Assembly (NCBI GenBank): GCA_902514295.1
Contig: CABXQE010000004.1
Span: 1-64,000 of the forward strand
DNA from: an uncultured SAR86 cluster bacterium
GTDB lineage: Bacteria; Pseudomonadota; Gammaproteobacteria; Magnimaribacterales; Magnimaribacteraceae
Length of the DNA stretch: 64,000 nucleotides
Direction: 5' to 3'
Part shown: piece after piece, positions 15,131 to 47,645 of the stretch
How positions within the stretch are numbered: the stretch's first letter is position 1
How the letters are laid out: the number at the start of each line of letters is the position of its first letter
Program-made: the position numbers and the translations under genes
Notes under the pieces: model-generated
Told to the model about the DNA's origin: nothing
Databases searched by the model: none
The model's input: the letters and a program-made list of their open reading frames with translations, nothing else

Positions 15131-15707
15131 TCAAAGAAGGCAACATATCTTTTATTACCTCAAAAGCCTTAGATCTATGACTTATTTTATTCTTTTCATC
15201 CTTCTCCATTTCGGCTAAATGCAAGTTATACTTTGGTAAAAGAAATATAGGGTCATAACCAAAACCCCTTTCTCCCTTAAATTCTTCAGCAATCTCACCC
15301 TCTAAAGTGCCTTCTGCAAAAACTGTTTCTCCTTCATTAAACCCTAACAAACAGCACTTGAATCTTGCTGTTCTACTTTCTTTTGTGACACTGGTCATGT
15401 GGTTTAATAATTTCTTGCAATTATCTAGGTCTGAGCCAGAAGAAGAGTACCTAGCAGAATAAACTCCCGGATTTCCATTTAGAGCATCTACCTCCAAGCC
15501 TGAATCATCTGCAAGCGCAGGCATTTGGAAATATTCAGAAACATATCTTGCTTTGATGAGCGCATTTTCTTTAAACGTTTCTCCTGTTTCTTCAGGCATT
15601 TCCTGCAATTCTCCAGGAATAGCGATGAATTCAAAATCCATCCCTTTAGAAAGTTGCTGGAACTCTTTAAGTTTTCCCTGATTTTGGGTGGCCAATATAA
15701 TTTTCAC
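15123..15707 (-). CDS. rdgB: dITP/XTP pyrophosphatase RdgB (HAM1 family)
   Basis: Cytosolic enzyme that hydrolyses non-canonical purine nucleoside triphosphates. The 194 residues contain all family motifs: ATQNQGKLKEF at the N-terminus, ENALIKARY, LADDSGLEVDALNGNPGVYSARY, GFGYDPIFLLP and SHRSKA near the C-terminus. It overlaps the upstream metW by four bases and forms the tail of a metX-metW-rdgB unit. A second house-cleaning gene (MazG-like) lies near the left end of the window. Confidence 0.96.
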   Translation of the reverse strand: MKIILATQNQGKLKEFQQLSKGMDFEFIAIPGELQEMPEETGETFKENALIKARYVSEYFQMPALADDSGLEVDALNGNPGVYSARYSSSGSDLDNCKKLLNHMTSVTKESRTARFKCCLLGFNEGETVFAEGTLEGEIAEEFKGERGFGYDPIFLLPKYNLHLAEMEKDEKNKISHRSKAFEVIKDMLPSLIN

Positions 15708-16291
15708 TTAGAGATCTTATATATCGCCGAAGCTCCAAATAGGTTAGGCCAAGCTCTGGTAAAGACGTTCGAGTGACCAGATGAATTGAATGATATTTTT
15801 TGTGTTATTTGAATTGACGTTTCAGAACAAAGTAACTCGAAATCTTCCAAGGTGCAAAGATGGATATTTGGAGTATCAAACCAACTTTCAGGCAATGGAT
15901 CAGTTATAGGCATTTTGCCGGTTAACAGAAGACTAAGCCTCGTTCTCCAATGACCAAAGTTAGGAATAGTCACTATGCAATCATTTCCTATCCTAGTAAT
16001 TTCTTGTAAAGCTTTTCTTGGGTCTTTTAAGACCTGTATAGTTTGACTCATTATGACTACATCAAAGCTGTTATCTATAAAATTATCCAAGCCCTCATCA
16101 ATATTCTGCTCAATTACATTGATTCCACTGGCTACACACTCATTAATGTTTGAACCGTCTATTTCAACTCCCACTGCCTTGATATCTTTTGAAGAGATTA
16201 GGTCTAATAATATTTCTCCTTTACCGCACCCTAGATCTAAGACCGAGGAGTTCTGAGTGACCCAATTATTTATAATTTCCAGAGTCTTCAT
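15704..16291 (-). CDS. metW: Methionine biosynthesis protein MetW
   Basis: 195-residue class I methyltransferase-fold protein that accompanies MetX; MetW is thought to support the homoserine acyltransferase. The SAM-binding-like motif VLDLGCGKGEILLDL lies near residue 16, and the family segments QNIDEGLDNFIDNSFDVVIMSQTIQVL and ITIPNFGHWRTRLSLLLTGKMP are well kept. Its ATG follows the metX stop codon with no gap. It should fall under the SAM-responsive leader ahead of metX. Confidence 0.94.
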   Translation of the reverse strand: MKTLEIINNWVTQNSSVLDLGCGKGEILLDLISSKDIKAVGVEIDGSNINECVASGINVIEQNIDEGLDNFIDNSFDVVIMSQTIQVLKDPRKALQEITRIGNDCIVTIPNFGHWRTRLSLLLTGKMPITDPLPESWFDTPNIHLCTLEDFELLCSETSIQITQKISFNSSGHSNVFTRAWPNLFGASAIYKISK

Positions 16292-17404
16292 TTAATTTCC
16301 TAAAAATGCGGTTAATGCGCTTACGTATCTATCTTCAGCAAAGAGAAATGAGTCATGCCCATGTGATGATTCTATCTCTAGGTAAGTGGTGTCTTTTTCT
16401 GCAGCCAACAAAGCATTTACTATTTCCTTAGATCTTTCAGGTGAAAATCTCCAATCACTTGAAAATGAAATAACCATAATTTTAGCCTTTATGGTTTCAA
16501 ATGCTTTAACCAAATCACCTTTATAATTTTCTGCTGGGTCATAATAGTCTAAAAGTTTTGTCATCAAGAGATAGGTGTTTGCATCAAAAGACTCTGAAAA
16601 TACATCGCCTTGATGTCTAAGGTAACTTTCAACTTCAAACTCAACATCAAAACCAAAATTTAATTTTCCTTCTTTAAGTTCTCTTCCAAATTTATCTCGC
16701 ATAGCTTCGTCAGATAGGTAAGTTATATGACCTACCATCCTGGCCAATCTAAGACCTGTTTTTGGAGATTTCTCTGAATCAAGGTACTTGCCTTCTTGGA
16801 AATCTGGATCAGTGATAATTGCTTGTCTAGCAACTTCATTAAAAGCTATGTTTTGTGCACTAAGTTTAGGAGCTGCAGCAATTACTGCTGCCTTGGAGAT
16901 TCTGTCAGGGAACAAACGGCACCATTCAAGAGCCTGCATCCCTCCAAGACTACCTCCAATGGCTGCATGCCAACATTTTATATTTAAATGATCAGCTAGC
17001 TGCGCCTGGCTGTTAACCCAGTCCTTTACCGTAATCACTGGAAAATCAGGCCCATAATATCTCTGGGTTTCAGGGTCAACAGAAGAAGGACCAGTGGAGC
17101 CATGACACCCACCAATATTATTTGGGCAAACCACAAAGAATTTATTTGTGTCTATTGCTTTGCTAGGGCCTATTAAGGCATCCCACCATCCAAGTCTCTC
17201 ATTCTCATCTTTATAATAACCAGCAGCATGATGATTCCCGCTTAAGGCGTGGCATATTAAGATAGCGTTAGAGGCATCAGAATTTAACTCTCCATACGTT
17301 TCATAAGTTAGCTCTATATTTTTAAGGGTTTTACCGCATTCAAGCAATAGATCACTAGGCAACTTAAATATTTGCTCTGTTACTTTTCCTACACTTTCAG
17401 TCAT
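16292..17404 (-). CDS. metX: Homoserine O-acyltransferase MetX
   Basis: Alpha/beta-hydrolase-fold enzyme that acylates homoserine (acetyl or succinyl donor) in the first committed step of methionine synthesis. The 370 residues include [14 protein letters not shown], the nucleophile elbow [12 protein letters not shown] and the C-terminal catalytic histidine region SSHGHDSFL. Acetyl and succinyl specificities evolve in this family, so the donor is not assigned. The ATG at 17404 directly follows the U-tract of a terminator hairpin, and no ordinary ribosome site is visible; a SAM-sensing leader lies upstream. metW is fused end-to-start downstream. Confidence 0.96.
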
Positions 17405-17436
17405 AAAAAAACCTGTTGGCTCAAGCTAACAGGTTT
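17405..17436 (-). terminator. Intrinsic terminator abutting the metX start codon
   Basis: On the minus strand a 12-bp hairpin (AACCTGTTAGCT / AGCCAACAGGTT with one G-U pair, two-base loop) is followed by seven T residues and then the metX ATG at once. It would stop transcription before metX or hide the start region. Its outer 5' bases (17433-17436) can pair instead with 17461-17468, so the two structures compete. Confidence 0.8.
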
Positions 17437-17495
17437 AATTCAATGCATTAGCTGTATTTCAATTAAACGCCCGCAAGCTGTCTCAAATCGGCGAA
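17437..17495 (-). promoter_or_regulatory. SAM-II/SAM-V class riboswitch aptamer ahead of metX
   Basis: Minus-strand RNA with stem CGCC (17490-17493) / GGCG (17468-17471) closing a loop GAUUUGAGACAGCUUGCG, followed by an A/U-rich linker and the strand ACAGCUAAUGCAUUG. The order GAUUU...UUGC in the loop and AGCUAA downstream matches the pseudoknot core of SAM-II, and more loosely SAM-V, riboswitches, recalled from the published consensus. The 3' strand lies before the terminator at 17405-17436. Position ahead of metX is the classic SAM-II location. Class II versus V cannot be settled here. Confidence 0.75.
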
Positions 17496-17519
17496 GTAAC
17501 AATTATATTGAAAGTTTAA

Positions 17520-18095
17520 TTAGAAGCCAACTGATAGCCAGACTGGTAGGCCTGATTCTACGGCAAATTGAATAAATATTGCTTGAAAGAAATTTAATAA
17601 AATAAAAGCAAAGATTGGTGAGAAGTCTAAACCACCCATAGGAGGAAGGAAGATCCTAAATGGTTTAAAAAGCTTATCCGACATTTGTCTAATTAAGACA
17701 ATTGCAGGATGAAAGTTATCTCCAGCAACCCAGCTTAGTATTATTCCTCCTAACATTATCCACCAAGCCATCTTCAGAATTAATAAAATTACAGAATAAG
17801 TAGACCAAATTAGTATCTTGATTGTCTCGTAATCTAAAGATCCTGCCATAGCGGCTAAATAAAAAGCTCCAGCTTGAACAAATAGTGCAACTAAAAAAGA
17901 AGACATGTCTAGACTATAAATAGGCTTGATCACAGATCTTAAAATTTGACTAGGAAAATCCACAGCTTTGATGATTCCTTGAACAAGAGGGTTGTAGTAA
18001 TCAACCTTTAGCAATCTAAATAAAAAATTAAACACAACCCCTATGGTAAAAATATCCATCAAAGCTTTAAATAAGAAAAAGGTTGCTTCAGACAT
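17520..18095 (-). CDS. yggT: YggT family membrane protein
   Basis: 191-residue inner-membrane protein with two YGGT repeats, each a pair of helices (about residues 12-60 and 105-175); segments VDFPSQILRSVIKPIY and LSWVAGDNFHPAIVLIRQMSDKLFKPFRIFLPP are typical. The family has a poorly defined role in osmotic stress tolerance and envelope function. The gene follows proC with a one-base gap, the conserved yggS-proC-yggT order of gammaproteobacteria. The metX leader starts right after its stop codon. Confidence 0.92.
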   Translation of the reverse strand: MSEATFFLFKALMDIFTIGVVFNFLFRLLKVDYYNPLVQGIIKAVDFPSQILRSVIKPIYSLDMSSFLVALFVQAGAFYLAAMAGSLDYETIKILIWSTYSVILLILKMAWWIMLGGIILSWVAGDNFHPAIVLIRQMSDKLFKPFRIFLPPMGGLDFSPIFAFILLNFFQAIFIQFAVESGLPVWLSVGF

Positions 18096-33091: not shown

Positions 33092-33877
33092 TTATCTCAT
33101 TAAAAGATTTAAGGCCATTATCATAACCAAAAATGCAAAAGCTATTCTTAGTTTTTTTTGCTTCATCCTGTGCGCGATATTCACTCCAAATTTTGCTGTA
33201 AGAGAACTCATTACTCCGACAATAATAGTAGCAGGAAGGTAAACATAGCCAATTGAATAATCAGGTAAATTGTTCTCATTCAAACCCACTATCATGTAAG
33301 AAATAGAACCAGAAATAGCAATTGGAATGCCGCAAGCTGCAGAGGTCCCTATGGCATTCATCATTTTCAGTCCTCTGTGATAAAAATAGGGGACTGAAAA
33401 TATCCCTCCACCAATACCAAAGACTCCTGAAAGCCAGCCAATTCCACCACCAGCAATAAATGGACCTATTAAATTTGTTTGAGGATTTTGAGGCGGAGGA
33501 GGAAATTCAAAGATTAGTTGAACTGAAGCTACCACCAGAAATAATGCCACCAATCCTTGCAAAGTATCACTTTCTATAAACCCCGCAGTGATTCCACCTA
33601 ACGCTGATCCTATAATAATACTAGGGGCAACGACTCTTATTAATTTCCAGTCAACGGCATCTTTTATATTATGAGAAAACGTTGAAGAAATAGAGCTAAA
33701 AATGATAACTCCTAACGAACTGCCCAACACCATGTGTGCTAAAATGCCTTCTTCAAAGCCTAGGTACGAAAAAATAAAGAAGAAAGTTGGAATTATAATA
33801 ATTCCGCCACCAATACCAAATAATCCAGCTAAAACACCAGAGAATGTGCCGAGCAAAAAGTATAAGAAGATTTCCAA
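33092..33877 (-). CDS. TSUP family sulfite exporter TauE/SafE-like permease
   Basis: 261-residue inner-membrane protein with about eight helices and two internal repeats; the segment GLFGIGGGIIIIPTFFFIF near the N-terminus and GVFGIGGGIFSVPYFYH near the middle are the duplicated TSUP signatures. Family members export sulfite, sulfoacetate or other organosulfur compounds, or take some up; the substrate here is unknown. It appears to be the first gene of an operon with the DUF4212/symporter pair, lgt, thyA and folA. Confidence 0.9.
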   Translation of the reverse strand: MEIFLYFLLGTFSGVLAGLFGIGGGIIIIPTFFFIFSYLGFEEGILAHMVLGSSLGVIIFSSISSTFSHNIKDAVDWKLIRVVAPSIIIGSALGGITAGFIESDTLQGLVALFLVVASVQLIFEFPPPPQNPQTNLIGPFIAGGGIGWLSGVFGIGGGIFSVPYFYHRGLKMMNAIGTSAACGIPIAISGSISYMIVGLNENNLPDYSIGYVYLPATIIVGVMSSLTAKFGVNIAHRMKQKKLRIAFAFLVMIMALNLLMR

Positions 33878-46454: not shown

Positions 46455-46508
46455 AAGAGTCGGGATTTGGTCCTATTGCAACGACTTTTAAAGAAAAGCT
46501 AAAACGGA
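46455..46508 (+). promoter_or_regulatory. SAM-II riboswitch aptamer ahead of the homocysteine methyltransferase
   Basis: Stem AGUCG (46458-46462) / CGACU (46482-46486), extendable to about eight pairs, closes a loop containing GGGAUUUGGUCCUAUUGCAA, followed by an A-rich strand AAAGAAAAGCUAAAACGG. Stem position, GAUUU, UAUUGCAA and AGCUAAAA match the known SAM-II consensus closely, and the UCC/GGA pseudoknot pairing is possible. A SAM-II element ahead of a betaine-homocysteine methyltransferase gene is known from marine SAR11 bacteria, where it is followed by a second aptamer; no second aptamer is clear here. Confidence 0.85.
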
Positions 46509-46535
46509 AACAGGAATTCCGGGGTTTAACTAAAG

Positions 46536-46586: not shown

Positions 46587-47645
46587 ATGAAAAGAACATT
46601 AATAGAAAGATTGGATCAAGGCCCTGTAATTTGTGCTGAAGGTTTCTTGTTCGAAGTTGAAAAAAGAGGTTATTTGGCATCTGGAGAATTTGTCCCAATG
46701 GTTTCTTTAGAACATCCTGAAGCTCTTGAAAATTTACATAAAGATTTTCAACATGCTGGTTCAGATATTGTTGAGGCTTTTACTTACAACGGTCACAGAG
46801 AAAAAATGCGTGTAATCGGGAAAGAGGAACTCCTAGAGCCACTTAATAGAGCAGCCCTTAAGATAGCAAAGAAAGTTGCTGACAATCCTGTGGATGGAGG
46901 AGAGCCAAATTTAATGGCAGGAAATATTTCGAATTCAAATATATGGAAAGAGGGTGACAATGAATCAAAAATAGAAGTCCATAGAATGTTTAGTGAGATG
47001 GTTGAGTGGGCGGTCGACGAAGGAGCAGACATATTAATTGGCGAAACCTTTTATTACGCTGAAGAAGCATATACAGCTTTAGATATTATTCAAAAGGCTG
47101 GATTACCATCGGTAATCACAATTGCTCCTATGGGTGTAAATTCAATGATGGATGGAGTTTCTGTTTTAGATACGATGAAAGAATTAGAACAAAGAGGAGC
47201 TGATGTGGTCGGCATGAATTGTTTTAGAGGTCCTGAAACCATGATGCCTTATCTTAGAGAAGCAAGAAAAATTCTTAAATGTCATATGGCTGCTCTTCCA
47301 ATACCGTATAGGACTTCAGAAGAAAACCCAACCTTCTTTAATTTACCTGACGATAGTTCTTGTACTTGTCCCGCTCCACATGGAAGAACTTTTCCTACAG
47401 CTTTAGACCCGCTTTATTGTAATAGATATGAGATCCAAGAATTTGGAAAAGAGGCTTCTAAATTAGGGATAAACTATCTAGGAGTTTGTTGTGGTGCAAC
47501 ACCTATGCATATAAGAGAAGTTGCTGAAGCAGCAGGTTTAACAGTCCCAGCAAGTAAATATAGAGAAAAAATGGAAAATCATTTTATGTACGGTTCTAAT
47601 GAAAGAACGGCAGAACATATGCAGGATTTTGGAGACAAAGCTTAG
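46587..47645 (+). CDS. Betaine-homocysteine S-methyltransferase-like enzyme
   Basis: 352-residue zinc methyltransferase of the homocysteine S-methyltransferase family, converting homocysteine to methionine with a methyl donor such as betaine. EGFLFEVEKRGYL near the start, DIVEAFTYNGHREKM and ADILIGETFYYAEEAYTALD follow the BHMT barrel. Zinc ligands: NCFRGPE and the paired cysteines in GVCCGATPMHIREVAEAAG. The SAM-II leader suggests methionine-repressed expression, in parallel with metX. A gamma-type cobalamin-independent MetE/MetH role is not implied. The gene ends 11 bases before the displaced tRNA-Phe fragment. Confidence 0.9.
   Translation: MKRTLIERLDQGPVICAEGFLFEVEKRGYLASGEFVPMVSLEHPEALENLHKDFQHAGSDIVEAFTYNGHREKMRVIGKEELLEPLNRAALKIAKKVADNPVDGGEPNLMAGNISNSNIWKEGDNESKIEVHRMFSEMVEWAVDEGADILIGETFYYAEEAYTALDIIQKAGLPSVITIAPMGVNSMMDGVSVLDTMKELEQRGADVVGMNCFRGPETMMPYLREARKILKCHMAALPIPYRTSEENPTFFNLPDDSSCTCPAPHGRTFPTALDPLYCNRYEIQEFGKEASKLGINYLGVCCGATPMHIREVAEAAGLTVPASKYREKMENHFMYGSNERTAEHMQDFGDKA

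Follow-up and report, generated by a model that had tools for sequence, protein, structure and literature searches.

The window, a stretch of 64,000 nucleotides from an uncultured SAR86 cluster bacterium (contig CABXQE010000004.1), carries the genes metX and metW on its minus strand. Upstream of metX lies a leader (17493-17405, minus strand) that sits between metX and the stop codon of a YggT-like gene, which has no NCBIfam match and is named here from its sequence. Read 5′ to 3′, the order is promoter-like sequence, aptamer, linker, terminator hairpin, seven U residues and AUG (Table 1). The −35 element of the putative promoter falls inside the 3′ end of the YggT-like gene; its TATAAT is unchanged in 24 of 24 metX leaders of the clade to which this leader belongs, and transcription probably starts near 17495, a few nucleotides 5′ of P1. 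The first-pass annotation described a minus-strand core composed of a short stem, a GAUUU...UUGC loop and an AGCUAA strand, and the sequence from 17493 to 17448 agrees with that description. The bases after GCUAA read UGCAUUGAAUUAAACC: they hold no Shine-Dalgarno (SD) sequence, and the terminator comes next.

Table 1. Features of the metX locus and of the second aptamer in the window
Feature	Position	Strand	Basis or remark
Putative sigma-70 promoter TTGGCT-17-TATAAT	17502..17530	minus	10/12 consensus matches; ~1 such site expected by chance
Aptamer core, SAM-II-type: P1 CGCC/GGCG, GAUUU triplex strand, UUGC/GCUAA pseudoknot P2	17448..17493	minus	hold-out model and P1 covariation
P1 5′ strand CGCC	17493-17490	minus	sequence
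GAUUUG (GAUUU triplex strand)	17489-17484	minus	sequence
UUGC (P2 strand)	17476-17473	minus	sequence
P1 3′ strand GGCG	17471-17468	minus	sequence
AGCUAA (P2 3′ strand)	17453-17448	minus	sequence
Equivalent of A47 (SAM-II) / A50 (SAM-V), U here	17447	minus	alignment of collected aptamers
Antiterminator 5′ partner (proposed), AGCUUGCGGGCGUUUAAUU	17461..17479	minus	overlaps P2, P1 3′ strand, L3
Antiterminator 3′ partner (proposed), AAUUAAACCUGUUAGCU	17424..17440	minus	overlaps terminator 5′ arm
Intrinsic terminator hairpin and U7 tract	17405..17436 (stem 17436-17409, U7 17411-17405)	minus	sequence, predicted fold
metX start codon AUG	17404-17402	minus	directly after U7
metX, homoserine O-acyltransferase (succinyl-type by NCBIfam)	16292..17404	minus	NF047916 MetX_succinyl 610.6 bits, cut-off 560
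metW, directly downstream of metX	15704..16291	minus	TIGR02081 243.2 bits, cut-off 189.5
Second SAM-II-type aptamer with A47, UCC/GGA P2a	46456..46513	plus	RF00521 23.3 bits; R2 35.8 bits
Homocysteine methyltransferase-like gene after second aptamer	46587-47645	plus	SD-like AGAGG

The Rfam model of SAM-II (RF00521, SAM_alpha) scores the metX leader at 11.4 bits (E = 2.6; gathering threshold 36 bits), and in a scan of the whole window the sole match over threshold was a tRNA. Other Rfam models that outranked SAM_alpha on the leader, including Bp2_287 and L10 leader, were far under their own cut-offs and were taken as chance. The scan with the SAM-II and SAM-V models that had been proposed as a check thus gave no significant match, SAM_V being absent altogether, and it is a model of the relatives that rescues the leader. 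This hold-out covariance model (R2) was built from 40 aptamers with the metX-leader clade left out entirely, and its top match in the window is the metX leader (38.7 bits, E = 3.5e-9). RF00521 itself gives matches at E ≤ 0.01 in 34 of 35 SAR86-family genomes (six of them over cut-off) versus none of 14 control genomes, and metX leaders from five sister-genus genomes reach about 28–36 bits.

The conserved UUU, UUGC and GCUAA are all present in the leader, between 17489 and 17448. In an alignment of 95 aptamers all five pairs of P1 covary, and the pairs of P2 are invariant. Folding the leader, the other check that had been suggested, was uninformative: the minimum free energy of the whole leader is no better than that of shuffles (z = −0.55), as expected of a fold model that leaves out the pseudoknot. 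The leader is kept in 36 of 101 relatives. Within the clade the aptamer has a pairwise identity of 96%, and the figures for the gap between promoter and aptamer and for the opening 60 nt of metX are 55% and 60%; judged by these identities the aptamer is under strong constraint and is not drifting. Conserved relatives, the hold-out match and P1 covariation together make the identification firm at the level of sequence: the aptamer is of SAM-II type, not SAM-V. We regard the metX leader as almost certainly a riboswitch of the SAM-II class that carries its own transcription stop, and infer that it binds SAM.

The same core is found 5′ of metY in the same genome and 5′ of the homocysteine methyltransferase-like gene in the window. 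One further R2 match in the window (33676-33710, plus strand; 18.4 bits, E = 0.0026) spans 35 nt only and is probably due to chance. Elsewhere in SAR86, SAM-II-like aptamers lie 150–200 nt 5′ of genes for OmpW-like outer-membrane proteins (~205–217 aa, named from sequence) at eight loci in several families, and some of these adjoin a second aptamer 5′ of metY. Other apparent SAR86 targets, at seven loci and also named from sequence, include TonB-dependent receptors, an alkane-monooxygenase-like protein, a carbonic anhydrase, a peroxiredoxin and an MmuM-like methyltransferase.

The terminator had been described as a 12-bp hairpin with seven U residues followed directly by AUG. The U tract and its junction with the start codon are as described; the stem comprises 9 bp plus two inner G-C pairs across a mismatch, with a predicted energy of −11.7 kcal/mol. 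A generic consensus terminator scan did not list this hairpin. A terminator follows the aptamer in 28 of 31 SAR86 metX leaders and in 35 of 48 metY leaders. Nothing other than U separates stem from AUG in 20 of the 28 terminator-bearing metX leaders of SAR86 and in 13 of 74 other metX leaders; a terminator abutting the start codon is therefore a recurrent layout. The lack of a ribosome site before the AUG, pointed out in the first-pass annotation, turns out to be ordinary: an SD-like motif precedes 13 of the 55 genes in the window, so a start without one is commonplace here, and none of the 28 SAR86 metX leaders with a terminator has such a motif. An SD hidden in the 3′ arm of the terminator (AGGU before the U tract) was considered and set aside; it is possible, but sister genera do not keep the spacing, and most genes here start without an SD.

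The closeness of hairpin and start codon raises the question of whether control is mainly translational, with the hairpin barring ribosome entry and termination secondary. The hairpin ends 4 nt from the AUG, and three species with a broken U tract (UUUAAUU) nonetheless keep it, with the one compensatory change seen in the terminator (G-C to U-A, in these three close relatives). In those species the sequence suggests that termination has been lost or that control is translational, and the retention of the hairpin despite the broken tract hints that it might also hinder initiation. For the clade at large, however, we think translational control unlikely to be the main mode: the U7 tract is unbroken in 17 of 20 distinct clade leaders, the metY relatives carry a separate SD 3′ of the terminator, and the majority of SAM-II switches are described as transcriptional.

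Control by transcription termination is the reading we prefer. The alternative stem proposed in the first-pass annotation (17468-17461 with 17440-17433) exists, but is just part of a longer possible helix, 17479-17461 with 17440-17424, that overlaps the terminator 5′ arm. This duplex has a predicted energy of −13.9 kcal/mol, and only 2 of 200 shuffles are as good; the proposed switch is plausible, with an antiterminator longer than had been envisaged. Across the metX clade, pairing of the terminator arm with the 5′ half of the aptamer (AGCUUGCGGGCGUUUAAUU) has a median energy of −12.5 kcal/mol and is significant against shuffled arms in 17 of 19 leaders (p ≤ 0.05), versus −5.3 kcal/mol and 4 of 19 for pairing with the P2 3′ strand. 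In metY leaders the preference is reversed: pairing with the P2 3′ strand (GCUAAAnAGG with CCUGUUUAGC) has a median of −13.4 kcal/mol and is significant in 33 of 35, as against −8.3 kcal/mol and 12 of 35 for the 5′ half.

Predicted nascent structures agree with 5′-half wiring in the metX clade and 3′-strand wiring in metY leaders, although the stability of the nascent fold does not exceed that of shuffles (z = −0.50). Within the clade 94.7% of cells in the 5′-half helix are paired, with no compensatory change among these related sequences. In betaproteobacterial metX leaders neither the 5′-half nor the 3′-strand antiterminator was significant as tested, and we propose no wiring for them. These models make it probable that in the metX clade the antiterminator partner has changed from the 3′ strand of the aptamer to its 5′ half. 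Either wiring, as modelled, would make aptamer and antiterminator mutually exclusive, so that a bound ligand would promote termination and the switch would be of the OFF kind.

The unusual feature of the leader, overlooked in the first-pass annotation, is the loss of a contact base. In SAM-II, A47 makes two hydrogen bonds to the amino-acid end of SAM and has been called completely conserved (PMC3764141). Our collection of 213 aptamer cores comprises 105 of SAR86 and 108 of other proteobacteria. Directly after GCUAA, 191 of them have A, 21 have U and one has C, and all 22 cores without A are metX leaders of the window's genus and one other (g6). The MetX proteins of these two genera group as a single clade (ultrafast bootstrap 95, SH-aLRT 94); the 22 leaders share one origin and come close to a single evolutionary observation. 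A pattern search of 369 sampled Gammaproteobacteria genomes returned 28 sites with A, in 27 genomes, and one without, which is the metX leader described here. The replacement of A47, with the probable change of antiterminator partner, is the new element at this locus, an unusual natural variant of SAM-II in one SAR86 clade.

Uracil displays its donor and acceptor groups in an inosine-like order, and poorer SAM binding with U47 would therefore be expected unless the geometry has changed. In SAM-V, replacing the equivalent A50 with purine weakened binding and replacing it with inosine reduced binding severely (PMC6061858); given this effect and the loss of the A47 contact, SAM binding by the metX leader is not assured. 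The base that contacts adenine (U44) and those that contact the sulfonium (U11 and U21) are retained. SAM recognition in the U47 clade is probably altered or weaker. As for P2a, two weak pairs could form in 8 of 14 distinct clade sequences, but not in the leader described here. An extension of P2 by C-G and G-C pairs, with base 47 bulged, is possible in all 14; the pairs never vary, and we offer the bulged extension only as a suggestion from sequence. The U also creates a two-codon frame within the leader, AUG-CAU-UGA (17449-17441, minus strand), which is found in most clade members; one has ACG, four have no near stop and one has CGU for CAU.

Loss of A47 might also mean a different ligand. 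Such an aptamer would keep adenosine and sulfonium recognition but differ in how it reads the amino-acid end of the ligand, and metX would answer to another SAM-related metabolite through the same terminator read-out. That 22 species share a pyrimidine at a direct-contact position, with the rest of the pocket invariant, speaks for such a change, and known aptamers have ligand-changed variants, such as the SAM-I variants that sense spermidine (PMC10853860). Those variants show that a SAM aptamer can change, take an altered ligand and still have a terminator read-out; they belong, however, to another aptamer class and to other genes, and the metX leader itself offers no evidence of a changed ligand. 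Its target, metX-metW, is the same as in relatives with A47, ligand changes usually being accompanied by gene changes, and the retained adenine and sulfonium contacts also count against the idea, which we hold to be quite improbable.

Without A47 and a consistent C-G P2a, the aptamer could instead be a relic that binds no ligand, followed by a hairpin that acts as a constitutive attenuator or as the terminator of the YggT-like gene. There is little to recommend this reading given an aptamer identity of 96% set against 55–60% in the flanks. The hairpin as a terminator of the upstream gene is likewise disfavoured, since genera that differ in their upstream sequence still have the element before metX, and the promoter-like TATAAT lies between that gene and the aptamer. 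That the leader is a SAM-V riboswitch is the least credible reading of all: it lacks a consistent G-C P2a, as SAM-V did when first described, and SAR11, like SAR86, is a streamlined marine lineage, but RF01826 is over cut-off in none of the 35 family genomes, is absent at E ≤ 0.1 from this genome and at E ≤ 10 from the matches to the leader (searches on which we reject SAM-V membership), the nearest relatives score as SAM-II, and what comes after the aptamer is a terminator, not an SD.

We therefore return to the metX leader as a SAM OFF switch of SAM-II type that works by transcription termination, with recognition altered or weakened in the U47 clade, and consider this the likely state of affairs. 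RNA polymerase would start just 5′ of P1. When SAM is plentiful it would bind and lock the P1/P2 pseudoknot, leaving the downstream strand available for the terminator hairpin; transcription would then stop in the U tract just before the metX AUG. When SAM is scarce, 17479-17461 is predicted to pair with 17440-17424 in the nascent RNA, the terminator would be blocked and metX-metW would be made. The clade aptamer, with U in place of A47 and without the 3′-strand antiterminator of its relatives, would have switched its pairing partner.

The first-pass annotation considered the combination of aptamer and terminator noteworthy, and was undecided between SAM-II and SAM-V. The aptamer and its terminator are there, SAM-V is not, and the arrangement itself is familiar. 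SAM-II elements that precede methionine genes, with the promoter immediately ahead of P1 and the terminator following P2, were reported in 2005 (PMC1273637); a 2007 paper remarked on SAM-II terminators in alpha- and betaproteobacteria (PMC2258182), the published architecture being that of an OFF switch; and SAM-II with a terminator has been studied in Sinorhizobium meliloti (PMC9373788). Promoter, aptamer, terminator and met gene, in this order, constitute the classic SAM-II arrangement, and are ordinary for the family.

The metX leader shares with SAM-II (RF00521; for example the element of S. meliloti metZ and of A. tumefaciens metA) the H-type pseudoknot with its GAUUU/UUGC/GCUAA core, the promoter just 5′ of P1, the intrinsic terminator and the association with methionine genes. 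It departs from SAM-II in having U for A47 and no consistent P2a, in scoring far under the Rfam cut-off, and in a terminator arm that is predicted to pair with the 5′ half of the aptamer and not with the P2 3′ strand; unlike most relatives, it also has an L3 two nucleotides longer. SAM-V (RF01826; for example SAR11 metY and bhmT) resembles it in ligand pocket geometry, as judged from published structures, and apparently in the lack of a stable P2a, but is translational, occludes the SD and has a P3.

A third point of comparison is the betaproteobacterial metXZ element, to which Leyn et al. (2014) assigned no ligand; SAM_alpha was found in the same study in Rhizobiales and Rhodobacterales only (PMC4239095). 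Like the leader described here, it is a pseudoknot-capable metX/metZ leader followed by a terminator, but it keeps A47. In Burkholderiales and Neisseriales, metX leaders share this aptamer core, A47 included; RF00521 scores in betaproteobacteria, at sites that probably correspond to these leaders, peak at about 30 bits, under threshold. From these sequences we infer that the Burkholderiales and Neisseriales metX leaders are the metXZ element, and that this is the same as the SAM-II element; a Bordetella sequence was listed as SAM-II by Corbino et al. in 2005 (PMC1273637). In the open-access literature, which defines the scope of our search, we found no paper joining SAR86 with SAM-II.

Together these comparisons suggest that annotation at the Rfam threshold overlooks metX-type SAM-II switches in SAR86 and Burkholderiales. 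They also suggest that, within one aptamer family, the antiterminator can move from the 3′ strand of the pseudoknot to the 5′ strand. A47 has been treated as indispensable, yet more than 20 SAR86 species of one clade hold a pyrimidine there in an otherwise fixed pocket. The U47 clade is thus a test, ready-made in nature, of the contacts that a compact SAM aptamer requires and of whether it is the affinity or the ligand that has shifted.
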